A stretch of 64,000 nucleotides of DNA from Neolewinella aurantiaca (GTDB lineage: Bacteria > Bacteroidota > Bacteroidia > Chitinophagales > Saprospiraceae). The notes under the pieces were generated by a model that saw nothing but the letters and a program-made list of their open reading frames with translations, was not told the DNA's origin and did not search any database. The position numbers were made by a program, and so were the translations under genes. Location: NCBI RefSeq assembly GCF_008014675.1, contig NZ_VOXD01000025.1, forward strand, positions 1 through 64,000, written 5' to 3'. This document shows, one piece after another, positions 4,869-62,829 of the stretch (within the stretch, counting starts at the first letter, position 1; each line of letters begins with the position of its first letter).

Positions 4869-4886
4869 GCACCCGCGTCTGCGCCC
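4869..4886 (+). repeat. Dispersed 18-base motif, copy 1
   Basis: GCACCCGCGTCTGCGCCC is an exact match to GCACCYGCG-NNN-SCGCCC. It is intergenic, 190 bases upstream of the start at 5059. Confidence 0.75.
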
Positions 4887-4907
4887 GCCATCACACGCTG
4901 GCCAGTG

Positions 4908-4980
4908 TATACTCCCCTCAGCTACAGCAGATGATTTTTGACGCGCCATCTTTTCACCTCATGTGACCGAGGGGAGTATA
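4908..4980. repeat. Perfect 12-bp inverted repeat
   Basis: TATACTCCCCTC at 4908-4919 is repeated inverted at 4969-4980, separated by 49 bases. It could be a long-loop hairpin or two operator half-sites in front of the small membrane protein gene. Confidence 0.6.
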
Positions 4981-5058
4981 GATAAAGCCGGTTTATCTCC
5001 GCAGAATGAAAACATGGACCTGAAAATGAGGTTACTTGCAGAGAGAAAATATCTAACT

Positions 5059-5220
5059 ATGACAGACGCGCCAAAAGACAAAAAGACATCCAAAATGATG
5101 ACCCTTTTCTACATCATTCTCGGAATCATTTTGCTGACCGTGTTTCTGGAAATGACCGGCATTGCCGACGTTGCCGGCAAACGAGAGCAGCAGGAAATTA
5201 TTGACCGGCCGCACCAGTAG
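5059..5220 (+). CDS. Small single-pass membrane protein, unknown function
   Basis: The 53-residue product has a short Lys-rich N-terminus (about residues 1-13), one hydrophobic segment at about 14-33 rich in I, L and F, and a charged tail ending near EIIDRPHQ. The frame stays open upstream to 4963, but that extension would run through an inverted-repeat arm and has no membrane-protein character, so I prefer the ATG at 5059, which follows GAGAGAA. I recognise no family. The start is uncertain. Confidence 0.5.
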   Translation: MTDAPKDKKTSKMMTLFYIILGIILLTVFLEMTGIADVAGKREQQEIIDRPHQ

Positions 5221-5261
5221 GATTGTAAACTACGACTTTTACTTTCGTCACGTCGGCCTCT

Positions 5262-5621
5262 TTAGCCCACATCTTCCATGATAAAGATGGCGTTGTTGTT
5301 TAAGTCGTAAAAGCCGAATTCGTTGGTTCCCCAATCGGTCCTCATCCGGAGTTTATCCTGGCCGATGGTTCCCCGCAACACGAATTCCTCGAAGAGAGGT
5401 AAAATGCCCTGAACCTGAATGCGCATTACGCCGGCCATTACGGGATCGTCTTCTGTGCCGTGGTGAAGTTGCAGGTGAAACTCCATGTTTTCCCGCTGCA
5501 TGATGGCGTAACCTTTCTGATCGGCTACGTTTTGAAAACCGGTCTTCTCTTCATACCAGGCAACATCCCGGGCCAGGTCTGAAGAAGCAAGCACAGGAAT
5601 AGTATTCAGGAATTTAATCAT
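5262..5621 (-). CDS. Glyoxalase/bleomycin-resistance (VOC) family protein
   Basis: The 119-residue single-domain protein has the vicinal-oxygen-chelate pattern: an opening FLNTIPVLASSDLARDVAWYEE strand-helix with WY, a central MEFHLQL strand with a candidate metal ligand, and a closing GTNEFGFYDLNNNAIFI segment. Proteins of this size act as dimers that bind a metal or a hydrophobic drug. The close similarity to bleomycin-binding layouts (aromatic WYEE, EFGFYDLNNN) suggests that subgroup, but substrate cannot be read from sequence. It is convergent with the small membrane protein upstream in the window and stands alone. Confidence 0.8.
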   Translation of the reverse strand: MIKFLNTIPVLASSDLARDVAWYEEKTGFQNVADQKGYAIMQRENMEFHLQLHHGTEDDPVMAGVMRIQVQGILPLFEEFVLRGTIGQDKLRMRTDWGTNEFGFYDLNNNAIFIMEDVG

Positions 5622-7418: not shown

Positions 7419-7552
7419 GCGGTTTCGTTTAGGGAGGTACTTTATGGTAACGTTTTTAGGCGGAGATAGATTATCAAGGCACCGCCGTGAGGCGGTAAAA
7501 TGGAAGGAGAGGTTAGTACGTGGGTATCACGATACGTCAGGAGTTCCCTCTT

Positions 7553-8854: not shown

Positions 8855-9253
8855 ATGAAATTTTTATTACCTCTGCTCCTGCTAACCCTACTGTGCACCT
8901 GCGGCCCCGCCCCCGAAAAGGCCACAAGCCAGGACACCGCAGCGGCACCAGCCCCAGCTTATCAGGACATTTCGCCGGCAGAGTTTGCTGGACGAATCGG
9001 TGGAAAGAATACCATTCTTATCGACGTCCGCACCCCCGCGGAAACCGCGGGAGGCATTATTGAAGGAGCAATTGAGATCGATTATCGCTCTCCGGACTTC
9101 GAGCAAAAAATAAGCGAACTGGACCCCGACAAAACATTCCTCGTTTACTGTGCCTCCGGTGGCCGGAGCGGTAAAGCCTGCGAGAAACTAAGTGAATTAG
9201 GTGCCAGCAAACTCTACAACCTCAAGGGAGGCTACGCAGCCTGGAAGGAGTGA
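8855..9253 (+). CDS. Rhodanese-like lipoprotein
   Basis: The 132-residue protein is an exported rhodanese. It has a hydrophobic leader (LLPLLLLTLLCTCG) with the lipid-modified Cys probably C16 (C14 is the alternative), a Pro/Ala spacer, then a rhodanese domain with LIDVRTPAE (about 55-63) and active-site C99 in LVYCASGGRS, ending GGYAAW. The core closely resembles the rhodanese just upstream (shared DxxELDPDKTFLVYC layout), so the two may have arisen by duplication. The bases encoding CTCGPAP are themselves an exact copy of the dispersed 18-base motif (8895-8912), placing the motif in the lipobox region. Confidence 0.9.
   Translation: MKFLLPLLLLTLLCTCGPAPEKATSQDTAAAPAPAYQDISPAEFAGRIGGKNTILIDVRTPAETAGGIIEGAIEIDYRSPDFEQKISELDPDKTFLVYCASGGRSGKACEKLSELGASKLYNLKGGYAAWKE
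8895..8912 (+). repeat. Dispersed 18-base motif, copy 2 (in a lipobox)
   Basis: GCACCTGCGGCCCCGCCC is an exact consensus match. It is read in the frame Cys-Thr-Cys-Gly-Pro-Ala-Pro of the rhodanese lipoprotein, 40 bases after its start codon. Confidence 0.75.
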
Positions 9254-12737: not shown

Positions 12738-12755
12738 GCACCTGCGGCCGCGCCC
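12738..12755 (+). repeat. Dispersed 18-base motif, copy 3
   Basis: GCACCTGCGGCCGCGCCC is an exact match (GCC-centred form containing a NotI octamer). It is intergenic, 136 bases upstream of the DUF5723 gene start. Confidence 0.75.
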
Positions 12756-16433: not shown

Positions 16434-16764
16434 AACTATGGTGGGTTCTTGTTGCAAAGAATGGTTCTGCAAACTACGCATTTAAGCAGAGTTTGTTGCC
16501 GGACACGACGAGGTCTTGTCGGGAAAGGACGTTTGCCCCCTCACTATTGTCATATTGCGACGCTGTTTTTCCAGTTTGCACCTACCCATCGTTTCATACA
16601 GGCGCAAGAGAATTTGGGCGCAAACGCAGGTGCAGTAAAAGTTATGAAGGAGCAGGCCTCTTCGTCGAAAAAAATGGGACGCTCGTCCAAAGACACCTTC
16701 TGTACCACCTCAACCAGCCCTACTTTAGATCAATAAACCTAAGCATTCATCATCCATTATCATC
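16434..16764. other. Divergent intergenic region
   Basis: No gene is supported. It separates the flavoprotein (leftward) from a lipoprotein (rightward) and so must hold two promoters. It contains one exact motif copy at 16616-16633 and, 40 bases before it, a half-like TTTGCACCTACCC. TACTTTAG at 16721-16728 is a weak -7 candidate for the lipoprotein gene. Confidence 0.5.
16616..16633 (-). repeat. Dispersed 18-base motif, copy 4
   Basis: On the minus strand it reads GCACCTGCGTTTGCGCCC, an exact match, in the divergent gap 149 bases upstream of the lipoprotein start. Confidence 0.75.
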
Positions 16765-19972: not shown

Positions 19973-22819
19973 ATGAAATTGAAATTATTACTTAGTTGCT
20001 GCTTACTATTCTCTTTTATTCCATCCCAGGCACAGACCGTTGACACTGATCTTTACCGTACGTTTACCGGAGAAAGTAACAATCCCGATCAGCAAAACTG
20101 GGGAGCATCACATACAGCCCTTATTCGTCTCGCTGGCGACGGTTACGTCGATGGCCAATCGATCCCTCCCGGCGAAAACCGCCCCAACCCCCGCACTGTA
20201 TCCAATACGCTTTTCGCACAGGAAGGCCTGTTCAATGATCCCGTCGGGCTAAGCGACTACACCTGGGTTTTTGGGCAGTTCATCGACCACGACGTAACGC
20301 TTACAGAGATTCCTCAGGAGTATACTCCTATTCCCGTCCCCGCCGGAGATCCGGATTTTGACCCCTTCTTTTTCGGGTCAGTAGTCATTCCGTTCAACCG
20401 CAACGCCCCCCGGCCCAATACCGGCTTCGGCATCGGTAACCCGCGTAATTACAACAACGATATTTCAGCCTTCATTGACGGTTCAGGAGTATACGGTTCT
20501 GACGAAGCTCGTGCCAATTGGCTGCGCTCTTTCAGTGATGGAAAACTGAAAGTCAGCTCCGGAAACCTGATGCCTTACAACACCATCGACGGAGAAATCG
20601 ACAGCCCACTGGACCCCACCGCTCCGCACATGGACGACGCCGTAGGGCGCTCTCCGTATCACTTCGTTGCCGGCGATGTCCGCGCCAACGAGAACCCCCT
20701 TCTGGCAAGTTTTCACACTCTTTTTGTGCGCGAACATAATTTGCAGTGCGAACGCCTCAAAAGCGAGCACCCCGACTGGGACGATGAACAACTCTACCAA
20801 CATGCCCGCAAAATTGTAGGAGGGCTCATCCAGGCCATCGTTTACAACGAGTGGTTGCCGGCAATGGGAGTTCCCGTCGGCGAATACCAGGGTTACGACC
20901 CTCAGGTCAATCCTCAACTCACTAACACTTTTACCGCCGCTGCTTTTCGGGTAGGTCATACTCTCCTGAACGGAAACCTTCGTCGCTTAGATGTGAACGG
21001 AAACGTAATTCCCGAAGGGAATATGACCCTTCGTGATGCTTTCTTCAACCCAACGGTATTAGCCGAAGTCGGCCTCGATCCTTTCCTGCGCGGCATGGCC
21101 GAGCAAGTCCAGCAAAAGATGGACAGCAAGGTTGTCGACGATGTTCGGAACTTCCTCTTTGGCCCTCCCGGAGCCGGAGGCCTCGACCTCGCATCGATAA
21201 ACATCATGCGGGGGCGGGACCGTGGCTTGCCCAGCTACAACAACATTCGGCTGGCCTACAACCTCCCGATCAACTTCACCTTCGATCAGATCAATCCTGA
21301 TCAGGAAGTCTACACCGTTCTCGAAACCCTCTACGACAACAACATCGAAGAAATCGACCCCTGGGTAGCCATGCTGGCCGAGCGCTCCGAGAACGGCAGT
21401 ATTTTCGGCTCCACCATCCGCAGAATTATGGAAACCCAATTCTCCAACCTGCGAACGGGTGATCGCTTTTTCTACCTCAATGATCCGGTGCTCAGCGAAG
21501 ATGAAAAAGACATGATTCACACAACCACCTTTCAGGAGATCGTGATGCGGAACAGCAGCATCGAACTGATGCAGGAAAACGTATTCGAAGCAATGCCCTT
21601 CAGTGAAATTTGCGGCGATGCCGTAACTTCTACAGACGGCTGGATTCAGGTCCATACCGTTGGTACACAACTACCCGATGTTACCGTTTCTGCTAACGGT
21701 GATAATGGTTCGGTAATGGGCACCTCAGTCACTTCTGATCTCGGATTCTATGAGTTCGAAACCCTGCCCGCCTGCCAGGATATCGTCCTAACGGCCAGTC
21801 TCAACGACGACTGGGTATCTGGAGTCAACATCTTTGACATGATCGCCATCAACCGGCACCTGCTCGGCCTTCAGTACCTCGAAAATCCATATCAGCTTAT
21901 TGCCGGAGACGTCAACAACGACAAGTCTCTGGACGTAATGGACATCATTGATATTTCCCGCCAGCAGCTTGGTTACATCGACAGTTTCCCCGGCGGTAAC
22001 GCACAGCCCTGGATCTTCATTCCGGCGGGCTACGACTTTGTCGACCCCGAGTTCCCCTTCGACGAAGACATTCCCTTCTCGATCGACTTCGCCCGCGTGC
22101 CTCCCTCCGAGATCAACCAGGGTTTTGTGGCGATCAAACTGGGTGATGTAAACGCCGACTTACAAATTGACGCCAACAACCAACCTCCCGGATTATGGGT
22201 CGAAGTACCCGAAGAAGAGATCGCCGCCGGCGATCAACGTACCATTGAACTCCAGTTTTCCGGAGAAGAACTCAACGGATTTCAGTTCGGACTGCAGGCA
22301 CAGGGGCTCCGCGTACTCGACGTAGTGAGTACCGATTTGCCGGAAAGCGCATACCGGCTCAGAGACGGAGAACTACAGTTCGTAAGTCTCGAAAACGGTA
22401 CTACCCGCCATTCGGTGGTACTAACGGTACAGGCTGATCGTTCCGGCCCCCTAGCCGATATGTTCTCCCTGACTCCCGACACAGCTCCGGTAGCAGTCGA
22501 TTTATCGGGTGCTCCACGTAGCGTTCAAATAGGCACGACTGCAGGTGCAGGGAGCGTCGCTTTGGAGAGCACAGTATCCCCCAACCCTTTCACCAATTCG
22601 GTCAGGCTGAGCTTCGCCTCTCCCCTCACGGAGTCGGCTAACCTCGAGCTGTTGGATGTAAACGGTCGCACACTCTATACTGAGGTATTGACCGCCGGAA
22701 CCGAATCTTCCCGCATCGATGGTCTCAGCCTCCCGGCGGGAACTTACCTGGTGCGGGTACTGAGCGCCGCTTCGGGGGACGTTCTCTTCCGCAAGACTTT
22801 ACAGTCGGTTGCCCGCTAG
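19973..22819 (+). CDS. Secreted animal-type haem peroxidase with dockerin-like repeats and T9SS sorting domain
   Basis: The 948-residue exported protein begins with a signal peptide (about 1-21). An animal-type (peroxidasin/peroxinectin) peroxidase domain spans roughly 25-540: distal His H106 in GQFIDHDV, DGSGVYGS, catalytic Arg R253 in FVREHN, proximal His H329 in AFRVGHTLL, and NIMRGRDRGLPSYN. A prealbumin-like or SdrD-B-like strand region follows, then dockerin-type Ca2+-binding repeats (DVNNDKSLDVMDI and GDVNADLQIDAN). The C-terminal 80 residues form a T9SS type A sorting domain opening SPNPFTNSV and ending LVRVLSAASGDVLFRKTL. It should be exported through T9SS to the cell surface or medium. 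Confidence 0.92.
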   Translation: MKLKLLLSCCLLFSFIPSQAQTVDTDLYRTFTGESNNPDQQNWGASHTALIRLAGDGYVDGQSIPPGENRPNPRTVSNTLFAQEGLFNDPVGLSDYTWVFGQFIDHDVTLTEIPQEYTPIPVPAGDPDFDPFFFGSVVIPFNRNAPRPNTGFGIGNPRNYNNDISAFIDGSGVYGSDEARANWLRSFSDGKLKVSSGNLMPYNTIDGEIDSPLDPTAPHMDDAVGRSPYHFVAGDVRANENPLLASFHTLFVREHNLQCERLKSEHPDWDDEQLYQHARKIVGGLIQAIVYNEWLPAMGVPVGEYQGYDPQVNPQLTNTFTAAAFRVGHTLLNGNLRRLDVNGNVIPEGNMTLRDAFFNPTVLAEVGLDPFLRGMAEQVQQKMDSKVVDDVRNFLFGPPGAGGLDLASINIMRGRDRGLPSYNNIRLAYNLPINFTFDQINPDQEVYTVLETLYDNNIEEIDPWVAMLAERSENGSIFGSTIRRIMETQFSNLRTGDRFFYLNDPVLSEDEKDMIHTTTFQEIVMRNSSIELMQENVFEAMPFSEICGDAVTSTDGWIQVHTVGTQLPDVTVSANGDNGSVMGTSVTSDLGFYEFETLPACQDIVLTASLNDDWVSGVNIFDMIAINRHLLGLQYLENPYQLIAGDVNNDKSLDVMDIIDISRQQLGYIDSFPGGNAQPWIFIPAGYDFVDPEFPFDEDIPFSIDFARVPPSEINQGFVAIKLGDVNADLQIDANNQPPGLWVEVPEEEIAAGDQRTIELQFSGEELNGFQFGLQAQGLRVLDVVSTDLPESAYRLRDGELQFVSLENGTTRHSVVLTVQADRSGPLADMFSLTPDTAPVAVDLSGAPRSVQIGTTAGAGSVALESTVSPNPFTNSVRLSFASPLTESANLELLDVNGRTLYTEVLTAGTESSRIDGLSLPAGTYLVRVLSAASGDVLFRKTLQSVAR

Positions 22820-22941: not shown

Positions 22942-24237
<1,296 letters not shown>

Positions 24238-24355: not shown

Positions 24356-24373
24356 TGGCGCGGTCGCAGGTGC
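24356..24373 (-). repeat. Dispersed 18-base motif, copy 5 (inverted pair with copy 6)
   Basis: On the minus strand it reads GCACCTGCGACCGCGCCA (one mismatch). With copy 6 it forms a perfect 13-bp inverted repeat (24365-24377 with 24428-24440), 119 bases upstream of eno. Confidence 0.7.
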
Positions 24374-24431: not shown

Positions 24432-24450
24432 GCACCTGCGTTCCCCGCCC
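24432..24450 (+). repeat. Dispersed 18-base motif, copy 6 (inverted pair with copy 5)
   Basis: GCACCTGCGTTCCCCGCCC carries one extra base relative to the consensus. It lies nine bases from the carA stop codon. Confidence 0.65.
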
Positions 24451-24458: not shown

Positions 24459-25562
24459 CTAGGCTTTATTCTCTTTGATCAGGTCGACGAACTGATCGAA
24501 CAGGTAATCAGCGTCGTGTGGCCCGGGGCTGGCCTCGGGGTGGTACTGTACGCTGAAAGCCGGTTTACCAACGATACGAATGCCTTCAATCGTATCGTCG
24601 TTGAGGTTGCGGTGGGTTACTTCTACCTTGTCCGCATTAGCGGCAATAGCTTCGGGGCTTACTCCAAAGCCGTGGTTCTGGCTCGTGATCTCCGACTTGC
24701 CGGTGATCAGGTTTTTTACGGGGTGGTTGATGCCACGGTGACCGTGGTGCATTTTGTAGGTCGGGATGTCTACGGCGCGGGCCAGAATCTGATGACCCAG
24801 ACAAATACCGAACATCGGCTTTTCCTGCTCCAACATCTCTTTAGCAGTGTCTACTGCGTAATCCATTGCGCCGGGGTCGCCGGGGCCATTGGAGACAAAC
24901 AGACCGTCGGGAGAGAAGCTCATGATATCTTCGATGCTCGCCTTGGCGGGAAAGACCTTCACGTAACAGTCCCGGCGCAGGAAATTGCGCAGAATATTCT
25001 GCTTGGTTCCCAGATCGAGCACGGCCACCCGGTAGGAGGCAGATTCTTCGCCGAGGGTGTAGGCTTCTTTGGTGGTCACCTTGCTGGAGAGCTCGAGGCC
25101 GTCCATATCCGGAGCCGCATCAAGTTGCTTCTTCAGCTCATCCATATCGAAGGTCTCGCTGGAAATGATGCCGTTCATTGCTCCTTTGGAGCGTATATGG
25201 CGAACGAGCGCGCGGGTATCCACGTCGCTGATGCCAACAAGTCCTTCGCCTTCCAGGTAATCCTGGATGGAGCTTTCAGCAATCTGGCGGCTGTAGGGTA
25301 CAGTGAAGTTCTTACAGATCAGGCCGGCGATCTTCACCGAATCGGATTCTGTGTCGGCATTCATCGTTCCGTAGTTACCGATGTGGGCGTTGGTGGTAAC
25401 CAGCAACTGGCCGAAGTATGAAGGATCCGTGAAAACTTCCTGATAACCGGTCATACCGGTATTGAAGCAAATTTCACCGGTGGTTGTCCCTATTTTACCG
25501 ACAGCTTTCCCTTCGTAAGTGGTGCCGTCGGCGAGGAGTAAAATGGCGCGTTGATGATCCAT
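24459..25562 (-). CDS. carA: Carbamoyl-phosphate synthase, small (glutaminase) subunit
   Basis: The 367-residue subunit hydrolyses glutamine and passes ammonia to CarB for carbamoyl phosphate, the precursor of arginine and pyrimidines. It has the N-terminal CPSase small-chain domain (ILLLADGTTYEGKAVG; FNTGMTGYQEV) and a class I glutamine amidotransferase domain with nucleophile Cys in FGICLGHQIL and the His/Glu pair in YHPEASPGPHD. I start it at the ATG at 25562. The frame is open to 25709, but the extra 49 residues do not resemble the family. carB is not adjacent. Confidence 0.95.
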   Translation of the reverse strand: MDHQRAILLLADGTTYEGKAVGKIGTTTGEICFNTGMTGYQEVFTDPSYFGQLLVTTNAHIGNYGTMNADTESDSVKIAGLICKNFTVPYSRQIAESSIQDYLEGEGLVGISDVDTRALVRHIRSKGAMNGIISSETFDMDELKKQLDAAPDMDGLELSSKVTTKEAYTLGEESASYRVAVLDLGTKQNILRNFLRRDCYVKVFPAKASIEDIMSFSPDGLFVSNGPGDPGAMDYAVDTAKEMLEQEKPMFGICLGHQILARAVDIPTYKMHHGHRGINHPVKNLITGKSEITSQNHGFGVSPEAIAANADKVEVTHRNLNDDTIEGIRIVGKPAFSVQYHPEASPGPHDADYLFDQFVDLIKENKA

Positions 25563-25806
25563 GGAGCGTTTTACGGGGGTCAATATTTGCGCAAAGATAA
25601 AAAACGTAGGGGGTTGGAGCCGGTAGGCCAGTAATATGTTTTGGTTAAGTACGATGTGTAGGGAGCTCCCCTTCTTACCAACCAGCAGCGAGAGAGAACT
25701 TTTGTCCATCTCACCGGGCTTATGTTAACCGGCATTAACCGATTTCTTACCTAAACTTAGTTTTCGATTCTCTCCCCATTAACATTCGGGCAGGACCTTA
25801 GCCACC

Positions 25807-28572: not shown

Positions 28573-29196
28573 CTATTTTAAGACCTCCAACTTCCTCAGC
28601 TCCCCCTTCAGCTCCTCCGGCCCAACAAACTGGATGGTCTCCAGCCCCAGCGACCTTGCTGTCTCACAGTTTCGCGCACTGTCATCAATGAACAGGCAGC
28701 CCGAGAAATCACCCAGCTTATACGTTTCCGCCAGGTGCAGGAATATATCTGGGTTGGGCTTCTTCATTTTTACCTCGCCGGAGACCATGATATCTTCGAA
28801 GATGTCGAGAAAGTCGAAGTTTTCGCGGGCCCAGGGGAAGAGCTCGGCGCTCCAGTTGGTGAGGGCGAGGAGGCGGTACTCTCCGGAGGCTTCCAGTGCC
28901 TTTAAAACTTCCACTGAACCTGCGATCGCGCCCGAAAAATGCTCCGTCCACCGGTCGTAGTACATACGGATTTCGCGTTCCCATTTCGGGTGTTCGCGTA
29001 CCAGTTCTTCGGTCGCTACGGCTACGGGGCGGCCCCGGTCCTGCTCTTCGTTCCAGTCCAGGTGGGTAATGTTATTAACAAACCAGTCGGCCTCTTCGGG
29101 CGTGTCGAACACCTTATTATACAGCAGGCGGGGGTTCCAACCGATGAGTACGTTGCCGATATCGAAGATGATGGTATGTTTTGGGGTGTTCGTCAT
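28573..29196 (-). CDS. HAD-superfamily hydrolase, YihX-like
   Basis: The 207-residue HAD subfamily IA phosphatase has motif I FDIGNVLIG with nucleophile D12 (Gly rather than Asp at the +2 position, as in YihX/epoxide-hydrolase-N types), motif II LTNWS at about 116-120, motif III Lys in KMKKPNPDIF and motif IV LFIDDS. A cap domain lies between motifs I and II (about 20-85). E. coli YihX hydrolyses alpha-glucose-1-phosphate; the substrate here is unknown. It is transcribed leftward with the lipoprotein gene that begins two bases after it ends. Confidence 0.88.
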   Translation of the reverse strand: MTNTPKHTIIFDIGNVLIGWNPRLLYNKVFDTPEEADWFVNNITHLDWNEEQDRGRPVAVATEELVREHPKWEREIRMYYDRWTEHFSGAIAGSVEVLKALEASGEYRLLALTNWSAELFPWARENFDFLDIFEDIMVSGEVKMKKPNPDIFLHLAETYKLGDFSGCLFIDDSARNCETARSLGLETIQFVGPEELKGELRKLEVLK

Positions 29197-31137: not shown

Positions 31138-31653
31138 ATGCTTTTTTCAACCCTCCATTGCACCCGCGGCCGCGCCCCGATGCTACTGATGGTACTCTTT
31201 GTCGCCTTTACCCCCCTTCTTTCGGGCCAGGAGTTGTCGCGCAGCGTCGTTGGCGCTGCGGGTAGCTACTACTCGGAAGTCAACGTCGGCAACATCCATT
31301 TCACCGTAGGAGAAATTGCCGTAACCCGTTCGCAAAACGGGTTGGTACTGGAGCGCGGCTTTCATCATGGCCTCTACGAACTGATTGCAACCAGCACCTG
31401 GAGTGCTCCGGCAATCCAGCTGGAGATGAGTGCTTTCCCAAACCCAACGGCCGACAAAGTGACGCTTACCGGCGACTGGAACCTCCGGGATCGCCTTAAG
31501 GTCTCCGACCTTTTGGGGCGCTTACTCTCCGACAAAGAGTTACCGCCGGGGCAGGCTGAATTAGACCTGACAAGCTACCCCTCCGGCACTTACCTCCTAA
31601 CTGTTTCACGAGCCGGCCAGCCGCTGAAAACACTGCGGATTGTCCGTCAGTAG
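31138..31653 (+). CDS. Secreted T9SS type A cargo protein, small
   Basis: The product is 171 residues from the ATG at 31138 (157 from the ATG at 31180). The second start gives a cleaner signal peptide, MLLMVLFVAFTPLLSGQ, so either may be used. The mature part has a short domain, VVGAAGSYYSEVNVGNIHFTVGEIAV, common in Bacteroidota secreted proteins, and then a complete T9SS type A sorting domain from SAFPNPTADKVTL to SGTYLLTVSRAGQPLKTLRIV. The protein is little more than a leader, a short unknown domain and a sorting tag. An exact copy of the dispersed motif at 31160-31177 lies between the two possible starts. Confidence 0.8.
   Translation: MLFSTLHCTRGRAPMLLMVLFVAFTPLLSGQELSRSVVGAAGSYYSEVNVGNIHFTVGEIAVTRSQNGLVLERGFHHGLYELIATSTWSAPAIQLEMSAFPNPTADKVTLTGDWNLRDRLKVSDLLGRLLSDKELPPGQAELDLTSYPSGTYLLTVSRAGQPLKTLRIVRQ
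31160..31177 (+). repeat. Dispersed 18-base motif, copy 7
   Basis: GCACCCGCGGCCGCGCCC is an exact match. It is read as Cys-Thr-Arg-Gly-Arg-Ala-Pro if translation starts at 31138, or it lies just upstream of the ATG at 31180. Confidence 0.75.
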
Positions 31654-33965: not shown

Positions 33966-33983
33966 GCACCTGCGGGAGCACCG
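33966..33983 (+). repeat. Dispersed 18-base motif, copy 8
   Basis: GCACCTGCGGGAGCACCG (two mismatches in the right half). It lies 13 bases after the S74 gene stop and pairs with copy 9 in inverted orientation across the terminator. Confidence 0.6.
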
Positions 33984-34073: not shown

Positions 34074-34091
34074 GGGCGCTGACGCGGGTGC
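34074..34091 (-). repeat. Dispersed 18-base motif, copy 9
   Basis: On the minus strand it reads GCACCCGCGTCAGCGCCC, an exact match, 159 bases upstream of the porX start codon. Confidence 0.75.
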
Positions 34092-36443: not shown

Positions 36444-36461
36444 GCACCTGCGGCCGCGCCC
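36444..36461 (+). repeat. Dispersed 18-base motif, copy 10
   Basis: GCACCTGCGGCCGCGCCC is an exact match, intergenic between two leftward genes, 88 bases upstream of the DUF421 start. Confidence 0.75.
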
Positions 36462-36474: not shown

Positions 36475-37926
36475 CTAACTGTACCCAACCGCTACCGCCA
36501 GCAGCAGCCCCAGCCAGGCCCAGACCAGGAGCATCCCCGTAAGCGGCAGCGCAAAGCGCAGCCACCGGTCGAACGGAACCCGGCACAGCGACAGCATTGC
36601 AACAAGGCCACCCAGCGACGGATTGAAGAGATTTGTAACGCCGTCGCCAATCTGAAAAGCAAGGATGGATATCTGAGGATTGAGCCCCAGTTCGTTGCCC
36701 AGCGGAATCATTACTGGTAGCGTCGCCATTGCCTGTCCGCTCCCCGAAGGGATGAGCAGGTTGAGGCCACTTTGCCCGATCGACATCCCGATGGCAGAGA
36801 GGTACGTAGGCAGCCCGTCCAGCGCGTTGGCCAGGCCGTTCGAGATGGTGTCCTGAATCTGCCCCTGCTCCATAATCACGCTCACCGTGGTGGCCATCCC
36901 GATGATGAAGGTTGCCGGAGCCATCTGGGCGATCGAGTGAAACCCCGCTTCGGTAACGGCCTGCCCCGAAAGACCGCTGGCCACCGCCAGCGCTACAGTC
37001 ACCATCAGAAAAATAGCGGAAGTATCGTTGATGTGGAAGCCCTCGATGTTGAACACTCCGTAGAGCACGGCCGCAAGTCCGAGCAAGAAGATCGACAACA
37101 ACAACCAGTTCTTATTCGTGATTTCGTACTCCGCCAGGGGCTTGCTGAGTTGCATCCCTTCGGTATCCAGTCCACGCCCGATGCCGCTTTCCGGATCGGC
37201 CTGTAGCCGGCGGTAGTACCGCACGTTGTACCAGGCAATGAGGGCGAGGCCGCCGGTGCAAAGAATGGTTCTGAGCCAGGCTCCGCTGAACAGGGGCAGA
37301 TCGGCGATCAGGTGGCCGTTGCCCACCGTGTAAAAATTGATCGGAGACAGGCCGAAGGCAACCGTCATGCCGCCCACGCTCACTCCTGCTGCGAGCACGA
37401 GGTCTCCGCCCAGCGCCAGCACGACGATCGCTGCAATCGGGATGGTTGCAATATTGTTTTCGTACCCGACCATTATCCCCAGCAAGCCGTAAACGATGGT
37501 GAGCAGCACCAGTAAAATCTCTGCCCGCCCCTTCTTCATGGGTGCACTTTGCCCCATTCCGGCCTTCTGTGGTGCGAGGGCCGGAGCCGTAGTATGCTTC
37601 CCGCTCATCAGATAGACCACCCGTCCGATTACGTTCTCGATGGTTTTGCTTCGTTCCAGCAGCGAGAACATCAGGGCACTGGCCAGGCAGATAAAAATAA
37701 TCGGGGTTGCCCGTTTATAGCCTTCGGGGAAAGCCTTGAAAATATCGAATATGCTGAGCGGAGAGGGTTCCACCAGCCCGTAGCTGCCAGGGACTACCCG
37801 CATCCGGCCGTCAACTTCTACCCGCTCGTACAAGCCGGCGGGCAATAGCCACGTCATTGCCGCCACCACCAGGATGATCAGGAAAAGCATGATGAGGGGA
37901 GAGGGGATACGGCTGTACCATTTCAT
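36475..37926 (-). CDS. YfcC-family (C4-dicarboxylate/arginine-ornithine-type) membrane carrier
   Basis: The 483-residue polytopic protein has about twelve hydrophobic segments of the DcuC/YfcC (C4-dicarboxylate anaerobic carrier) superfamily: PAGLYERVEVDGRMRVVPGSYGL near the N-terminus, YENNIATIPIAAIVVLALGGD and a C-terminal IPSGSGQAMATLPVMIPL followed by GDGVTNLFNPS, both hallmark helical-hairpin motifs. The start at the ATG at 37926 gives a normal N-terminus; the frame is open to 38016 without family similarity. Substrate cannot be read; the family takes up C4-dicarboxylates or basic amino acids. Confidence 0.85.
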   Translation of the reverse strand: MKWYSRIPSPLIMLFLIILVVAAMTWLLPAGLYERVEVDGRMRVVPGSYGLVEPSPLSIFDIFKAFPEGYKRATPIIFICLASALMFSLLERSKTIENVIGRVVYLMSGKHTTAPALAPQKAGMGQSAPMKKGRAEILLVLLTIVYGLLGIMVGYENNIATIPIAAIVVLALGGDLVLAAGVSVGGMTVAFGLSPINFYTVGNGHLIADLPLFSGAWLRTILCTGGLALIAWYNVRYYRRLQADPESGIGRGLDTEGMQLSKPLAEYEITNKNWLLLSIFLLGLAAVLYGVFNIEGFHINDTSAIFLMVTVALAVASGLSGQAVTEAGFHSIAQMAPATFIIGMATTVSVIMEQGQIQDTISNGLANALDGLPTYLSAIGMSIGQSGLNLLIPSGSGQAMATLPVMIPLGNELGLNPQISILAFQIGDGVTNLFNPSLGGLVAMLSLCRVPFDRWLRFALPLTGMLLVWAWLGLLLAVAVGYS

Positions 37927-40120: not shown

Positions 40121-40138
40121 AGGCGCGGCCGCAGGTGC
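40121..40138 (-). repeat. Dispersed 18-base motif, copy 11
   Basis: On the minus strand it reads GCACCTGCGGCCGCGCCT (one mismatch). It is intergenic, 86 bases upstream of the GCS2-CBS start codon. Confidence 0.75.
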
Positions 40139-41604: not shown

Positions 41605-41942
41605 TCGGGTTCAATTTTCGGGTATCCAGCCGGCCTTCAGACCGGCTGGGCAGGTTATGCCTATGAAATGACCAGAATCAAAAAGAGTTCACTTTAATTA
41701 TCAAAGTTCTTTAAATATTACAAAACCATTATCGTCAACACCTTTACACGGCTAGCTTCGCGCAATTACGCGAGCGGCCAACAAGTAAGAGCAAGCTTCA
41801 ATTCAACAACTCTTTGCACCTGCGGCCCCGCCCCGTTATGTCGCAAACGTTAATTTCTCAACTGACCAACAATAGTTACCCACCACTCCGTTAACTTTAG
41901 GCATCCTATTTTCGCTGTTTTCTTTCCACCATACCCATTACG
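41605..41942. other. Divergent intergenic region
   Basis: No gene is supported. It separates the cytochrome gene (leftward) from the efflux adaptor (rightward). It contains a hairpin (41626-41635 with 41640-41649, one G:T pair) near the cytochrome start, an AT-rich core at about 41690-41740, motif copy 12 and a weak -7-like TAACTTTA at about 41890-41897. Confidence 0.5.
41816..41833 (+). repeat. Dispersed 18-base motif, copy 12
   Basis: GCACCTGCGGCCCCGCCC is an exact match in a divergent gap, 110 bases upstream of the adaptor start. Confidence 0.75.
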
Positions 41943-44834: not shown

Positions 44835-46295
44835 ATGCGTTCCCTTACTTTGCTGTTCCTGTTCTTTTTTTGCACCTGCGTCAGCGCCCAAAAAACCTAT
44901 GTCTTAACCCTGGAGGAAGTGGTGGAGATTGCCCGCAGCGAGTCTCCCGACATGAAACTTGCCGAAACCCGGCTCAACAACAGCCTCTGGCAATACCGCT
45001 CGTTTCAGGCCGATTACAAACCGCAGATTAGTCTCGACGCCACGCTGCCCGGCCTCAACCGTTCCATCGAGCCCATTACGCTGCCCGACGGCAGCGAAGA
45101 TTTCGTGAGCCGGGCTTTCATGCGCAATTCGGTCAACCTTTTTCTCTCCCAACCCATCACGGCCACCGGAGGACAAATTTTCCTCACCACCGGTCTGCAG
45201 CGCCTCGATGTATTCGAGACCGACATCAACGCAGGGTCACTGTCTTACCTCTCCACACCGGTTTCCATCGGCTTCACCCAGCCCCTGCGGACTTACAACG
45301 ACCTGAAATGGCGGCAAAAAACCGAACCGTTGCGTTATCAGGAAAACAAGCGTCAGTTCAACGAAGCGAAGGAACAGGCAGCAGCTACCGCATCGAACCT
45401 GTTCTTCGACCTCCTCATCGCTCAGCTAACCCTGGAAGCAGCCAACAAAAACAAAATCAACGCCGACACCCTCTACGAAATCAGCCAGGGCCGTTATTCC
45501 GTTGGCCGCATCGCCGAAACCGACCTATTACAGATTGAGCTGAGCGTCATGAACGCCAACGCCTCGCTCGCCAGCGCCAACCTGAACGCACAAACGGCCA
45601 ACGAGCAGCTGCGCAGTTTCCTTGGGATTACGACCAATGCCGAATTCCAACTCATCCCGCCCGACGGCATACCGACCAATACCGTTGACCCCGAAATGGC
45701 CCTGCAGCACGCCCTCCAGAATCGCAGCCTCATCCTCGCCTTCGAACGGCGGGTGCTGGAAGCCGAAGCCGAACTGGACCGCGCGGTAAAAAGCAACGGC
45801 TTTCAGGTTGACATTAACGGGCAGTTTGGCCTTTCCGGAACGGGAAAAAGCCTGGACGGAGCCTACAACGGGCTCATCGATCAGGAGGTGGTTACCCTGG
45901 GGATTCGTGTTCCGATCGCAGACTTTGGCAAGGCCCGCAGCCGCATCGAGGTTGCCCGGTCGAACCAGGACCTGGAGCGGCTCAACATATCTCAGGAGAA
46001 AATCAGCTTCGAACGGCGCATCCGTTTGCAGGTGCAGCAGTATGACCTGCTGCGCAACCAGGTTGCTCTTTCTGACCGGGCCTACGAGGTTTCCATCCGC
46101 CGCGAAGAGATCACCCGCAAACGCTACCTGATCGGCAAACTGAGTGTGACCGAGCTCAACCTGGCCGTGCAGGAAAAAGACGCGGCCCGGCGGCAATACC
46201 TCTCCAGCCTGCGGGATTTCTGGATCGGGTATTACGAGCTCCGTCGGCTTACCCTCTTCGATTTCGTTACGGGAGAAAAGTTGGTGGCGGAGTAA
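44835..46295 (+). CDS. TolC-family outer-membrane efflux protein
   Basis: The 486-residue TolC-type channel has a signal peptide (about 1-20, MRSLTLLFLFFFCTCVSAQ) and duplicated helical hairpin halves with the opening EVVEIARSESPDMKLAETRLNNSL and later LDAERRVLEAEAELDRA-type helices, plus beta strands near SLDATLPGLNRSI and VTLGIRVPIADFGKARSRIEVARSNQ. I start it at the ATG at 44835, in keeping with the signal peptide; an ATG at 44799 is in frame. The codons for CTCVSA are an exact copy of the dispersed 18-base motif. With the adaptor and permease it forms a tripartite efflux pump, perhaps for macrolide-like compounds, peptides or lipids. Confidence 0.9.
   Translation: MRSLTLLFLFFFCTCVSAQKTYVLTLEEVVEIARSESPDMKLAETRLNNSLWQYRSFQADYKPQISLDATLPGLNRSIEPITLPDGSEDFVSRAFMRNSVNLFLSQPITATGGQIFLTTGLQRLDVFETDINAGSLSYLSTPVSIGFTQPLRTYNDLKWRQKTEPLRYQENKRQFNEAKEQAAATASNLFFDLLIAQLTLEAANKNKINADTLYEISQGRYSVGRIAETDLLQIELSVMNANASLASANLNAQTANEQLRSFLGITTNAEFQLIPPDGIPTNTVDPEMALQHALQNRSLILAFERRVLEAEAELDRAVKSNGFQVDINGQFGLSGTGKSLDGAYNGLIDQEVVTLGIRVPIADFGKARSRIEVARSNQDLERLNISQEKISFERRIRLQVQQYDLLRNQVALSDRAYEVSIRREEITRKRYLIGKLSVTELNLAVQEKDAARRQYLSSLRDFWIGYYELRRLTLFDFVTGEKLVAE
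44872..44889 (+). repeat. Dispersed 18-base motif, copy 13 (in a signal peptide)
   Basis: GCACCTGCGTCAGCGCCC is an exact match. It is read as Cys-Thr-Cys-Val-Ser-Ala at the signal peptidase region of the TolC protein, 37 bases after the start codon. Confidence 0.75.
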
Positions 46296-46303: not shown

Positions 46304-46321
46304 CTGCGCGGACGCAGGTGC
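46304..46321 (-). repeat. Dispersed 18-base motif, copy 14
   Basis: On the minus strand it reads GCACCTGCGTCCGCGCAG (two mismatches). It lies nine bases after the tolC stop, the only copy in a convergent gap. Confidence 0.6.
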
Positions 46322-50378: not shown

Positions 50379-50396
50379 GGGCGCGGCCGCGGGTGC
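50379..50396 (-). repeat. Dispersed 18-base motif, copy 15
   Basis: On the minus strand it reads GCACCCGCGGCCGCGCCC, an exact match, in the gap before the small-protein/HNH pair. Confidence 0.75.
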
Positions 50397-50511: not shown

Positions 50512-50529
50512 TCACCTGCGCTCGCGCCT
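50512..50529 (+). repeat. Dispersed 18-base motif, copy 16
   Basis: TCACCTGCGCTCGCGCCT (two mismatches, first and last base). It is inverted relative to copy 15 and 97 bases upstream of the ATG at 50609. Confidence 0.6.
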
Positions 50530-53223: not shown

Positions 53224-53916
53224 ATGTCATTGAAAATACTTGGTGTGGGAGCTCCCCGCACCGGAACCTCATCCCTTAAAGTTGCCCTCGAAATGCTTGG
53301 CTACGGCAAATGTGCCCACATGCAGGAGCTGTTCGGCAACCCCACCAAAACCAGTCAATGGGAGCAGTTCTTTGAGACGGGCAAAACAGATTTTCCGGAC
53401 CTCTTTGATGGTTACCAAAGCAGCACAGATTTTCCCGGCTGCCTGATGCATAAAGAGCTCTCGGAACAGTACCCGGGGATGAAGTTTATCCTCACTCTCC
53501 GCGATCCCGAGGAGTGGTACGAGAGTGTGCTGCGGACGATCCACGCTGCGGTACCGCACAGCGCTGCGGCAAAAGAAGCAATGCGATTGAAGGGTGAGGC
53601 TTCGCCGAAATTCAGGAGTATTGGCAATGCACTCGCCCTGGTAGAGAAGTATCTTTTTCAGCGGCACTACGCCGGAGAGTTCCTGAACAAGGAGGCAACA
53701 ATCTCGCGTTACCTTGCTTTTCAAAACGAGCTCCGCACCTGCGTCCCCGCCCAAAATCTGCTCGAGTTTCGCATCAGCGACGGTTGGGAACCCTTGTGTG
53801 CTTTCCTTGGTGTTCCGGTTCCTGAGGAGCCTTTCCCGTTCAAGAACAAACGCAAAGATTTCCAGGAACAGATCGGAAAGATGATATCTGATGGCGGACA
53901 GTTAAGAATAAAGTAG
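53224..53916 (+). CDS. P-loop (PAPS-type) sulfotransferase family protein
   Basis: The 230-residue protein has the sulfotransferase nucleotide loop APRTGTSSLKVAL (about residues 10-22), the 3'-phosphate-binding segment FILTLRDPEEWYESV and a conserved FLGVPVPEEPFPF near the C-terminus. It is of the short Sulfotransfer_4-like group that transfers sulfate from PAPS to a small molecule, sugar or lipid. An exact motif copy lies at codons 171-177 of the coding sequence, one of the few in the middle of a gene. Its context (AssT-like upstream, GT39 downstream) suggests modification of surface glycans. Confidence 0.85.
   Translation: MSLKILGVGAPRTGTSSLKVALEMLGYGKCAHMQELFGNPTKTSQWEQFFETGKTDFPDLFDGYQSSTDFPGCLMHKELSEQYPGMKFILTLRDPEEWYESVLRTIHAAVPHSAAAKEAMRLKGEASPKFRSIGNALALVEKYLFQRHYAGEFLNKEATISRYLAFQNELRTCVPAQNLLEFRISDGWEPLCAFLGVPVPEEPFPFKNKRKDFQEQIGKMISDGGQLRIK
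53735..53752 (+). repeat. Dispersed 18-base motif, copy 17 (mid-gene)
   Basis: GCACCTGCGTCCCCGCCC is an exact match inside the sulfotransferase coding region, read as Arg-Thr-Cys-Val-Pro-Ala-Gln around codons 171-177. Confidence 0.7.
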
Positions 53917-59204: not shown

Positions 59205-61346
59205 TTGGCTAACCCCGGAACATCAGACTTTTCTATCACCTCGCCGGTCGTCGGCCTTGTTGGCAATCCCAACAGTGGTAAGTCATCGCTCTTCAACCTG
59301 CTTACGGGTTTACGACAACGCGTCGGCAACTTCCCCGGCGTTACGGTCGAGAAGAAGTCGGGGGTGATGAGAATCGAGAACCTGCCTCCTGTAGAGATCA
59401 TCGATTTCCCAGGAGCTTACAGTTGCTATCCTACCAGCCTCGATGAGCGCCTCGTTGTTCAGGAGCTCACCAATCCTAAAGGAGACCTTTTCCCCGACGC
59501 CATCGTCTACGTTGCAGACGTTACCAAACTGGACAAGCATTTACTGCTATTCACCCAACTCCGCGACCTAGACCTCCCCATGATTCTCGTCCTGAACATG
59601 GCCGACCTCATCGAGGAAGAAGGCCTGCAAGTGGACGTTACCGGTCTTAGTCGCCGCCTCGGCGTTCCTGTAGTAGCGGTCAGTGCCCGGGCAAACAAAG
59701 GCGTAAGCGAATTAAAAAAAGCCATCGCCGATCTTTTGCGCAACCCGCAGGAGTTTCGCCCGGAAGAACCCTTTTACGAGCCGGGTGTACTCGCCCGCGA
59801 CGTACTCGGTGATTTGCGCCAGGAACTTCCTGCCCGCAACGACTATCACGCACTCCTACTTGCCCACCACGCCAGCTGGCTCAAGCATGTTCCTGAAAAA
59901 ACGCGGCACAAAGTCCAGGAAGCGAGGGTGAAAAACGGCTTTCACAGCCTACGGGCACAGGTGGAAGAAACAATGGAACGGTACGACACCTTCGAGCCCA
60001 TCGTTCGGGACACCGTTCGCCGGGCAAAAAACAAGTCTTCTTTCAGCGAGCGCGTTGACGATATTCTTACCCACCGCGTCTTCGGCCCGATGATCTTCGT
60101 CCTCATCATGCTTCTTCTTTTTCAGGCGCTTTTTGCCTGGACCGGCTGGCCGATGGAGGGGATTGAATGGTTTTTCGAGACCCTGGGCAACACCGTCCGG
60201 GAAAACCTCTCTGAGGGCTGGTTTACCGACTTACTCGTGGATGGCATCATCGCCGGGCTCGGTGGGGTACTGGTGTTTGTGCCACAAATCGCTGCTCTTT
60301 TCCTCTTCATCACCATTCTTGAAGAAGTCGGCTATATGGCCCGGGCAGCTTACCTTTTCGACAGCCTGATGCAGCGGTTCGGGCTCAACGGCCGATCTGT
60401 GGTTGCCCTCATTAGCGGACACGCCTGTGCCATCCCCGCCATCATGAGCACCCGCACTATAGCCAACTGGAAAGAACGCCTGCTGACCATCATGGTCACC
60501 CCGCTCACGTCCTGTTCCGCCCGTATCCCGGTCTATGTTATCCTAATAAGTTTTGCAGTCCCGAAGGGGACCTTCTTCGGTTTCGGTTACCAGGGGCTGG
60601 CCTTTGCCGGGCTCTACTTCCTGGGAATCATCTCCGCAATGCTTTCTGCCCTGATCTTCAAACTTGTTCTCAAGAGCCGGGAGCGTAGTTTTCTGATGCT
60701 CGAAATGCCGGATTACCGTACTCCGGTATGGCGCAACGTAGGCATTACCGTCTGGCAAAAGGTCAAGAGCTTCATCATGGAGGCCGGTAAAATCATCCTG
60801 CTTATCAGCATTGTACTTTGGGGCTTGTCTACTTATGGTCCTTCAGGAGCAATGGAAGAGGCGCGGGCGCAGGTCCAAAAAACGGTTGAGGAGCAAGGAC
60901 TCAGTGACGACGACGCTGCCGATCTTCTCGCAAGTGAACAACTCGAAGCCAGCTACGCCGGACACGTCGGTAAGTTTATCGAGCCCGTCATTCAGCCACT
61001 TGGTTACGACTGGAAAATCGGTATCGCACTCTTCACGAGTTTTGCTGCCCGCGAGGTTTTCGTTGGCACCATGGCCACTATTTACTCCATCGGCAGCGCT
61101 GATGATGAGTTGCGCATCCGTGACCGTATGGCCGAAGAAATCAATCCCCGCACCGGCGAACAGGTCTACAACCCAGCGACGGCATGGAGCCTACTGGTCT
61201 TTTATGTCTTCGCAATGATGTGCATGTCTACGCTCGCGGTCACCAAACGGGAAACCGGCGGTTGGAAATGGCCGGTCATTCAGTTTACTTTCATGACGGC
61301 GCTGGCTTATGTTTCGGCGATGGTGGTTTACCAGGTATTAAGCTAA
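59205..61346 (+). CDS. feoB: Ferrous iron transport protein B
   Basis: The 713-residue GTP-dependent Fe2+ transporter has an N-terminal G domain with G1 GNPNSGKSS (about residues 20-28), switch FPGVTVEKK, G3 DFPGAY and G4 NMAD, followed by a GDI-like spacer and a polytopic core of about eight segments with two Gate motifs containing SGHACAIPAIMSTRTI and CSARIPVYVI. Translation must start at the TTG at 59205, because a stop codon (TAA) immediately precedes it and no in-frame ATG exists before the G domain. FeoC is absent. Confidence 0.95.
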   Translation: MANPGTSDFSITSPVVGLVGNPNSGKSSLFNLLTGLRQRVGNFPGVTVEKKSGVMRIENLPPVEIIDFPGAYSCYPTSLDERLVVQELTNPKGDLFPDAIVYVADVTKLDKHLLLFTQLRDLDLPMILVLNMADLIEEEGLQVDVTGLSRRLGVPVVAVSARANKGVSELKKAIADLLRNPQEFRPEEPFYEPGVLARDVLGDLRQELPARNDYHALLLAHHASWLKHVPEKTRHKVQEARVKNGFHSLRAQVEETMERYDTFEPIVRDTVRRAKNKSSFSERVDDILTHRVFGPMIFVLIMLLLFQALFAWTGWPMEGIEWFFETLGNTVRENLSEGWFTDLLVDGIIAGLGGVLVFVPQIAALFLFITILEEVGYMARAAYLFDSLMQRFGLNGRSVVALISGHACAIPAIMSTRTIANWKERLLTIMVTPLTSCSARIPVYVILISFAVPKGTFFGFGYQGLAFAGLYFLGIISAMLSALIFKLVLKSRERSFLMLEMPDYRTPVWRNVGITVWQKVKSFIMEAGKIILLISIVLWGLSTYGPSGAMEEARAQVQKTVEEQGLSDDDAADLLASEQLEASYAGHVGKFIEPVIQPLGYDWKIGIALFTSFAAREVFVGTMATIYSIGSADDELRIRDRMAEEINPRTGEQVYNPATAWSLLVFYVFAMMCMSTLAVTKRETGGWKWPVIQFTFMTALAYVSAMVVYQVLS

Positions 61347-61494
61347 GGCGGCAAAGCAGCCTCCGGATGCGATACCTCGCCTACGTAAAAAGCACACACC
61401 AGCGCGTAGCCTCGCACTTCACGGAACATCACAATACCGCAACACGATCGGAGAGGGTGCGGACCGCTTCCTCCCGGAGGGTGCGGCGACCAGC

Positions 61495-62706
61495 TTACCA
61501 GTGCTTGGCCACGTAGGGGTAAGTCATCTGGTATTCATCCTTCACCATTGACACCAGGCGATCACGCAGTTTATCCATGTTCTCGCGGGTATGGGCTGAA
61601 ATCAGAAGAGCTTCATTCTGGAATTCGCTTTCCAGACTTTTGCGCAATCCTTCTTCTACTTCCTCGCGGCCTTCCTCATCGAGGTAAAGGTCGTAGTTCC
61701 GCTCACGGAAAAGATCGATTTTATTAAAGACGAGCACGGTTGGTTTCTGGTCAGCTCCAAGTTCTTTGAGCAGCTCCTGGACGGTCCGTATCTGGTCTTC
61801 GTGCGCGGGGTGGGCTACGTCTACTACGTGCAGGAGGATGTCGCTCTCGCGTACCTCATCGAGGGTAGACTTAAAGCTTTCAACCAGGTGGTGAGGTAGT
61901 TTACGGATGAACCCTACCGTATCGGTCAGGAGGAAAGGGACGCCTTCGTAGGCGACCTTCCGCACAGTCGTGTCGAGGGTTGCGAAGAGTTTGTTTTCGG
62001 CGAAGACATCCGACTTGGTGATGAGGTTCATCAAGGTAGACTTGCCGACGTTGGTGTAACCCACCAGGGCTACCCTGACCATTGCATCGCGGCCCTTGCG
62101 TCGGGTTTCCGCTTGCTTATCGATCTTGATCAGGTCTTTCTTCAGTTTGGAGATTTTATCGCGGATGATCCGGCGATCCGTCTCGATCTCGGTTTCACCC
62201 GGCCCGCGCATCCCGATACCACCACGCTGGCGCTCAAGGTGAGTCCAGAGTCCGCGCAGGCGGGGCAACATGTACTGCATCTGGGCAAGTTCGACCTGGG
62301 TTTTGGCCTGGGCGGTTTGGGCACGTCTCGCAAAAATATCCAGAATAAGACTTGAGCGGTCGATGATTTTCACCTTCATGCGTTCTTCAAGAACGCCGTT
62401 TTGCTTTCCGCTGAGGTCATCATCAAAGATGACCATCGTTACTTCTTCGTGGTTTTTCACGTACTCGGCGATCTCGGCTGCTTTACCGCTACCGACAAAG
62501 GTTTTGTTGTCGGGGCTGTCCAGCTTTTGGGTAAAACGCTTAACGGTTACTGCACCTGCGGTGAGCGCCAGAAACTCCAACTCGTCGAGGTATTCAGCTA
62601 CCTGCTCTTCGGTTTGGTTGCGCTTGATCAGCCCCACCGTTACCGCGTATTCCGTTTCTTTTTTAAGGCCAGATTGTTTTTGCCCTAAGTTCCATTCGTT
62701 TGCCAT
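61495..62706 (-). CDS. hflX: GTPase HflX
   Basis: The ribosome-splitting GTPase is 403 residues from the ATG at 62706 (408 if the ATG at 62721 is used). It has an N-terminal HflX domain with VGLIKRNQTEEQVAEYLDELEFLALTAGAV and FVGSGKAAEI, the characteristic GIGMRGPGETEIETDRR linker helix, and a G domain with GYTNVGKS, DTVGFIRKLP and NKIDL. HflX binds the 50S subunit and rescues stalled ribosomes under heat stress. It is the leftward neighbour of glyS, across an intergenic region with one motif copy. Confidence 0.94.
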   Translation of the reverse strand: MANEWNLGQKQSGLKKETEYAVTVGLIKRNQTEEQVAEYLDELEFLALTAGAVTVKRFTQKLDSPDNKTFVGSGKAAEIAEYVKNHEEVTMVIFDDDLSGKQNGVLEERMKVKIIDRSSLILDIFARRAQTAQAKTQVELAQMQYMLPRLRGLWTHLERQRGGIGMRGPGETEIETDRRIIRDKISKLKKDLIKIDKQAETRRKGRDAMVRVALVGYTNVGKSTLMNLITKSDVFAENKLFATLDTTVRKVAYEGVPFLLTDTVGFIRKLPHHLVESFKSTLDEVRESDILLHVVDVAHPAHEDQIRTVQELLKELGADQKPTVLVFNKIDLFRERNYDLYLDEEGREEVEEGLRKSLESEFQNEALLISAHTRENMDKLRDRLVSMVKDEYQMTYPYVAKHW

Positions 62707-62811
62707 ATGTGTAGGTAACAATAGAAATAAGTCGCAAGTTTTCTTTTGCTTCTCCTTTGCGCTCCGTGGAGCACAACTCGTTGGTTATTACTTTGCCGAA
62801 AACCTTCCTTC

Positions 62812-62829
62812 GCACCTGCGGCCGCGCCC
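62812..62829 (+). repeat. Dispersed 18-base motif, copy 18
   Basis: GCACCTGCGGCCGCGCCC is an exact match, intergenic between the glyS stop and the hflX start, 106 bases upstream of hflX. Confidence 0.75.

Follow-up and report, generated by a model that had tools for sequence, protein, structure and literature searches.

The window analysed here is a stretch of 64,000 nucleotides from Neolewinella aurantiaca (Bacteroidota, Saprospirales), contig C23 of an assembly (G000) that has 104 contigs and totals 6.0 Mb, and its subject is a two-part DNA word, GCACCYGCG-NNN-SCGCCC, of 15 fixed or two-fold bases plus flank, that recurs throughout it. A preliminary description had placed 12 exact and six inexact copies in the window, all of which are present in its sequence, and had offered an uptake-like word, a site for a global DNA-binding protein or a mini repeat as candidates. 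Our analysis indicates that the word is probably a genus-wide signal for the uptake of self DNA (probability about 0.6), which by analogy would work like the DNA uptake sequence (DUS) of Neisseria or the uptake signal sequence (USS) of Haemophilus.

Copies of the word in the window

Genes were called with our own hexamer caller, which is rough, so that start codons are approximate. Nine of the 12 exact copies are intergenic on these calls: 4869..4886 on the plus strand (GCACCCGCGTCTGCGCCC), 12738..12755 (plus, with two minus-strand genes on either side), 16616..16633 (minus, divergent genes), 31160..31177 (plus, two bases ahead of a predicted start whose codon is uncertain), 34074..34091 (minus), 36444..36461 (plus), 41816..41833 (plus, divergent genes), 50379..50396 (minus) and 62812..62829 (plus). 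Weaker copies in gaps stand at 33966..33983 (plus, two changes), 40121..40138 (minus, one change) and 46304..46321 (minus, two changes). The gap between the minus-strand genes for enolase (22942-24237) and the carbamoyl-phosphate synthase small chain (24459-25709) holds an inverted pair, with 24356..24373 (minus, one change) as its left arm and 24432..24449 (plus, two changes) as its right arm, and the copy at 50379 is the left arm of a wider inverted pair completed by 50512..50529 (plus, two changes).

The remaining three exact copies lie in predicted genes. That at 8895..8912 (plus) falls inside a predicted signal-peptide start, where it reads ...LLCTCGPAP, that at 44872..44889 (plus) within the signal peptide (MRSLTLLFLFFFCTCVSAQ) encoded by a gene for an outer-membrane efflux protein, and that at 53735..53752 (plus) in sense orientation in a sulfotransferase-like gene (53224-53916, plus), where it is gapless against the relative G002. 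Three weaker copies add to those described earlier: 28916..28933 (plus, one change), antisense in a HAD-hydrolase-like gene (28573-29196, minus) and gapless against the relatives shown; 37242..37259 (minus, two changes), sense in a predicted gene (36475-37926, minus); and 60859..60876 (minus, two changes), antisense in a FeoB-like gene. With up to two mismatches the window thus holds 21 copies, 12 of them exact and 15 of the 21 intergenic, against a mean of 0.87 and a maximum of 4 in 100 dinucleotide shuffles.

Abundance and anatomy of the word

The whole genome carries 684 exact copies, 330 on one strand and 354 on the other, against a single copy of the reversed pattern. The preliminary description was right and, if anything, understated the abundance of the word, and against this reversed control genome-wide counts stand far above the chance level. 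A sample of 478,765 bases of this genome was analysed in detail and gave 52 exact copies against none for either the reversed or the complemented pattern, 117 against 2 and 2 with up to one mismatch, and 151 against 18 and 18 with up to two mismatches; because each control reaches 18 at this last threshold, single two-mismatch copies are less certain. By itself the nine-base core has 142 matches in the sample, or about 30 per 100 kb.

The distance between the two halves is nearly fixed. Among the 68 sample copies of GCACCYGCG that are followed by CGCCC at a spacer of 0-8 bases, 55 have a spacer of four (the NNNS of the exact pattern) and 13 one of 5-7, and none was found at 0-3 or at 8. A weaker module lies upstream, where AACC occupies positions -11 to -8 and CTTT positions -4 to -1. 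It is seen both among 74 intergenic copies and among 32 that lie deep within genes; in the latter, C at -8 reaches 80% and T at -1 reaches 86%, with A at -11 and -10 at just 52% and 46%. Since the module is also found deep inside genes, it is not merely the composition of gaps, and the AACC...CTTT flank belongs to the word. A short dyad, GCG..CGC, lies in the right half, and its counterpart in the dialect of the relative G011 is TTTG..CAAA (read by eye from the rows listed). One reading frame of the word gives CTC(V/G)(R/S/P)A(Q/P), which closes the predicted signal peptide of several proteins, as at 8895 and 44872 in the window and at C1 58644, C1 75861 and C2 62918 elsewhere in the genome.

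Placement, orientation and spacing

With up to one mismatch, 74 sample copies are intergenic and 43 lie in genes, and intergenic bases make up 14.6% of the sample, an enrichment of about tenfold per base. The earlier view that the word stands mostly upstream of genes and in either orientation is therefore broadly right, and the intergenic enrichment does not vanish beyond the window. The proposed distance of 85-160 bases to the start codon did not turn out to be sharp, the quartiles in same-direction gaps being 53, 95 and 156 bases. In same-direction gaps the exact sample copies split into 8 sense and 11 antisense; 12 more stand in divergent gaps and 1 in a convergent gap.

A promoter, 5' leader or RNA element governing the downstream gene would explain why the word is so often found upstream of genes, why sense copies exceed antisense copies in same-direction gaps over species (67 against 42, counted in genomes with long stretches, each scored with its own dialect pattern), and why the word upstream of enolase keeps its place in several relatives. 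However, those 42 antisense copies, the opposite leaning of the exact copies in the N. aurantiaca sample and the antisense copies inside genes are not what such an element predicts. We reject a 5' leader or promoter element on the occurrence of both orientations and on the gene-internal antisense copies, and consider this explanation very unlikely.

Spacing is near random, with a coefficient of variation of 0.90 on one 1.1-Mb contig and 0.89 in G000, and the 49 copies of the 1.1-Mb contig form no orientation blocks (31 runs against 25.5 +/- 3.5 expected). On the lack of such blocks along this contig we reject a marker of the replication strand similar to Chi or to the FtsK-orienting polar sequences (KOPS).

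Substitution as the origin of coding copies

Coding words were divided beforehand by position, 32 within the first 45 residues being excluded and 73 past residue 45 kept; 19 of the latter had a usable homologue in the sequence fetched, and same-genome comparisons were removed. A gap within three residues of the word was found in 5 of 55 alignments, against 396 of 4,863 control windows, and a gap inside the word in 2 of 55; at 50% identity or more, the figures were 2 of 44 near the word, 0 of 44 inside it and 113 of 3,239 control windows. For 14 of the 19 words, every alignment was free of gaps. In miaA, which was selected by eye as a recognised family from the list of word-bearing genes, the word site is gapless in all 20 genus genomes, 16 of which have a recognisable word. 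Grouped by eye, 12 genomes carry GCACCYGCGNNNSCGCC, with a final C in G006 only, four (G001, G007, G013 and G016) have the right half CNNCGGCGCC, and four (G017, G004, G009 and G011) have a decayed word or none. Against solved MiaA chains, none of the three alignments shown has a gap in the word codons, though in two of them a short gap lies some three residues away or closer. Nor does a gap interrupt the two-mismatch copy in threonine aldolase in any of its three alignments shown. Coding copies arose by substitution, not insertion. The intergenic copies, which are too diverged for the gap test, would have arisen likewise.

The codons of miaA also point to constraint at the DNA level. Over the 20 genomes, unchanged residues keep the same codon at a rate of 0.59 within the word, compared with 0.41 outside it, although residues at the word are less conserved than average (0.58 vs 0.64). 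Among 250 windows that of the word comes 10th, and the one that starts a codon earlier and overlaps it comes 1st. In the eight genomes that lack the common form, little of the excess is left (47% vs 41%, rank 53 of 246). The value of 0.82 in the 12 carriers is partly circular, since carriers were chosen by the word, and the figure for all 20 genomes is the fair one.

These results bear on the idea that the word is a mobile short repeat, of the type of repetitive extragenic palindromic (REP) sequences and their paired form (REPIN), spread by a REP-associated tyrosine (RAYT, Y1) transposase. Hundreds of copies, four Y1 transposase genes in the N. aurantiaca genome and a preference for inverted pairs would suit it, the commonest arrangement of copies 25-150 bases apart being -+ (13 of 19 on clean stretches). 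Nevertheless, coding copies are not insertions, as seen in miaA and in a gap test at control level; in 13 close inverted pairs the two arms vary independently, their centres being equal in 2 where 1.5 are expected; and the sequence between the arms looks unconserved by eye. Nor are words concentrated around the transposase genes: around 19 loci sampled from the 65 Y1 loci in the genus, including one of the four in N. aurantiaca, there are 9 words in 61,485 bases, or 1.46 per 10 kb against a background of 1.93, and G018, a fragmented assembly, has 593 words and no Y1 match. A mobile repeat is thus rejected for the coding copies by the gapless alignments and made improbable in general by the independent arms and the lack of enrichment at the 19 Y1 loci sampled, and we rate it the least likely of all explanations considered here.

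Distribution and dialects across the genus

Among 396 genomes sampled from the order, 17 of them in the genus, 28 had a match and none outside the genus had more than two copies. A slightly narrower word matched at least 111 stretches of the named GTDB contigs; among the 80 listed, matches on two or more contigs came from Neolewinella agarilytica, N. persica, N. lacunae and N. antarctica and from bins labelled uncultured Lewinella, 'Bacteroidia bacterium' and Saprospiraceae, Lewinella sp. W8 appeared in one row, and the rest were scattered over many phyla. In viral contigs, the 15-base word matched at least 120 stretches, and 76 of the 80 listed had a single match.

Within the genus, dialects were defined by de novo word counts and a seeded consensus and then counted in 21 whole genomes, where the best-fitting pattern has 113 to 1,084 copies in each of the 20 relatives; the patterns differ in length, so that their counts are not strictly comparable. 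Dialect A, GCACCYGCGNNNSCGCCC, is that of N. aurantiaca, with its 684 copies, and reaches 226-1,084 copies in 15 of the 20 relatives; it is still the best-fitting pattern in G015, with 134 copies, and falls to 130 in G004, 18 in G007, 2 in G001 and 1 in G011. Dialect B, ACCYGCGCTCCGNCGCC, has 239 copies in G001, 113 in G007 and at most 59 elsewhere, and dialect C, GCTCCYGCGNNNSCGCC, has 418 in G004, 257 in G017 and at most 31 elsewhere, G017 being mixed with 297 copies of A. Dialect D, TTGCTACTTTG-N1-2-AGNCA, has 504 copies in G011, where one- and two-base spacers coexist, and none in the 20 other genus genomes. Strands are balanced in the other dialects counted as well (252/252 for D in G011 and 116/123 for B). 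On a three-gene midpoint-rooted tree, B corresponds to the clade of G001 and G007, C to that of G004 and G017, and D to the longest branch; the dialects follow the species tree.

At a single site, the word may be kept, altered or missing in relatives. In the gap between enolase and carbamoyl-phosphate synthase the exact word stands at the same place in G002, G003, G008 and G031, is altered in several relatives, and was not found in G005, G014, G009 and G012. In G030, this gap has a perfect GTCCCGACT/AGTCGGGAC inverted repeat in place of the right half of the word.

Over-representation as a by-product of DNA modification, restriction or repair bias would have a precedent in the highly iterated palindrome HIP1, a genome-wide word that rises without a known receptor. 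However, 15 fixed or two-fold bases plus flank are far longer than such motifs, and the dialects change several bases together, up to the very different word of G011. We therefore regard this explanation as highly improbable, ranking between the promoter element and the mobile repeat.

Other genera of the order were scanned for enriched 9- to 12-mers in about 100 kb each of G020, G021, G025, G026, G051, G077 and G180 and in 81 kb of G037. The 10-mer score of G020 (67) is similar in strength to those of N. aurantiaca (80, for 100 kb of its genome) and G011 (92), and at least in L465 its signal is an AT-rich tandem array. Weaker repeated words occur in G180 (score 44) and G077 (28), and this enrichment scan found nothing comparable in the other five genomes, G021, G025, G026, G051 and G037. 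The repeated words of these genera are TTAATGGTTA... in G180 (L496-L500), ATACGAATTACAT in G077 (L491-L495) and arrays of TTGAATATTG in G020 (L461-L465).

Apart from the word, positions 19973-22819 of the window encode a large animal-haem-peroxidase-like protein with a Por secretion tail domain.

Discussion

Our reason for favouring an uptake signal is the combination of properties described above: the word is long, two-part, formed in place, strand-symmetric, clade-specific and partly coding. Biased uptake would act as a drive, favouring the spread of point mutations that create or improve words, whichever the strand and whether they fall in a gap or in a part of a gene that tolerates them. 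If the preference of the receptor shifted in a lineage, the words would drift along with it, and a dialect would result. From these patterns we infer competence in these bacteria, promotion of DNA uptake by the word, and the existence of a receptor, which would presumably sit in the outer membrane. Of the three candidates first proposed, the uptake-like word is thus the best fit, the mini repeat is not supported, in view of substitution in coding copies, independent pair arms and the lack of enrichment at the RAYT loci sampled, and the site for a global protein keeps some probability.

On the side of the machinery, the inner-membrane DNA channel ComEC is present in all 19 genus genomes searched, in favour of an uptake signal, but it also occurs in 8 of 11 word-free genomes of other families and thus does not discriminate. 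The comEC gene of N. aurantiaca itself holds an exact word in antisense (G000:C2:33455). Other observations weigh against an uptake signal. A PF00437 search of the 19 genus genomes gave no full-length match to a pilus ATPase. Partial matches of about 19-25 bits occurred in 18 of the 19, ten of them barely reaching the curated cut-off over about 83 of 370 positions in proteins of about 950 residues, and these are taken to be other ATPases; in two further genomes of the order, scores for this family of pilus and type II secretion ATPases exceed 400 bits. A type IV pilus with a word-binding minor pilin therefore found no support from its ATPase, secretin and minor pilins having not been searched for, and without a full-length pilus ATPase the receptor would be new. 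Transformation of Riemerella is reported to depend on ComEC, DprA, ComF and RecA, together with four proteins that resemble no known machinery (PMC8459023), and this competent member of Bacteroidota speaks in favour of an uptake signal. The domain of the candidate DNA receptor of Riemerella, DUF5689, was found in only 1 of the 19 genus genomes, G011, on which ground we reject a receptor of that type for the genus. G011 has an open frame of 708 amino acids with three DUF5689 matches (L449, G011:C115:8691-10592), and it is also the genome with the odd dialect, a coincidence in one genome that we note as a lead. Also on the negative side, no report of competence in Neolewinella or Lewinella turned up in the literature searched, which left most subscription papers outside; constraint at the DNA level was measured in one gene only, miaA; and the word is longer than the 9-12 bases of DUS and USS. 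The preference for -+ pairs has the analogy with DUS pairs as its sole explanation under uptake. Finally, a neutral uptake tag predicts neither the sense bias over species, which the exact copies of the N. aurantiaca sample do not share, nor the shortage of words in convergent gaps, where 15 were counted over species and 27.7 expected. The sense excess and the convergent shortage mildly favour a role near the upstream sides of genes, against a purely neutral tag.

The main rival takes up these last points. The word may be bound by an abundant protein, either a chromosome organiser or a global regulator, acting in the cytoplasm at 1,000 or more places, with selection at each site and dialects formed by co-evolution. 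A long, two-part, asymmetric site with a flank module would suit such a protein, as would the tenfold intergenic enrichment, the sense bias and convergent-gap shortage, and the preferred -+ pairs. Nevertheless, it would need separate selection at hundreds of sites, many of them in genes far from starts, and the near-random spacing and orientation speak against it. We consider this explanation unlikely, while giving it clearly more weight than any of the other alternatives.

We lean slightly towards a bolder claim, namely that the word is a third, independently evolved sequence-specific uptake signal and the first in Bacteroidota. It would operate without type IV pili through a putative outer-membrane receptor, and the genus has four or more dialects, among them one (TTGCTACTTTG) that is almost unrelated to the rest. 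A search of titles and the beginnings of abstracts, with most subscription papers outside it, found no report of uptake words under Bacteroidota or Bacteroidetes, Flavobacteri-, Lewinella, Neolewinella or Saprospiraceae. Such a case in a distant phylum, apparently without a pilus ATPase, would mean that the logic by which cells prefer self DNA is not tied to one particular machine, and several dialects in one genus would be a natural experiment for finding the receptor by co-variation. It would also suggest regular gene exchange among these marine bacteria. If a chromosome-wide binding protein is the right answer, its site system would be of unusual length and number.

The preliminary description knew of no described counterpart, which our literature search, as far as it reaches, bears out for the sequence itself; in behaviour, the word has close counterparts in DUS and USS. 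The USS of Pasteurellaceae combines a core with an outlying flank module and keeps its coding copies in tolerant positions, and the word resembles it in these features. The sequences are unrelated, the USS core has nine bases, and the pilus machinery of USS is that of a gammaproteobacterial family. HIP1 of cyanobacteria, an 8-base palindrome, is likewise highly iterated genome-wide and found in genes; unlike it, the present word is long, two-part and divided into clade dialects. REP and REPIN sequences with their RAYT share many short intergenic copies and inverted pairs with it, whereas the coding copies here arose by substitution and no link to the RAYT loci sampled was seen. Riemerella anatipestifer belongs to the same phylum, Bacteroidota, and its transformation system also shares the presence of ComEC; a further similarity is that the abstract of the Riemerella study calls none of its eight essential genes a pilus gene. 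It differs in that the main text of the study contains neither 'uptake sequence' nor 'uptake signal' (PMC8459023), and the DUF5689 surface protein family of Riemerella was found in 1 of the 19 genus genomes searched. The DUS differs in its unrelated sequence, in its 12 bases against about 28 here with the flank, and in being bound by the minor pilin ComP, where we infer uptake and found no full-length pilus ATPase. In all other respects compared it is the closest parallel: the DUS of Neisseriaceae has several dialects that follow phylogeny and forms inverted pairs, and the word shares with it many copies on both strands, an intergenic bias together with genic copies, inverted pairs in gaps and phylogeny-following dialects (PMC3630211).

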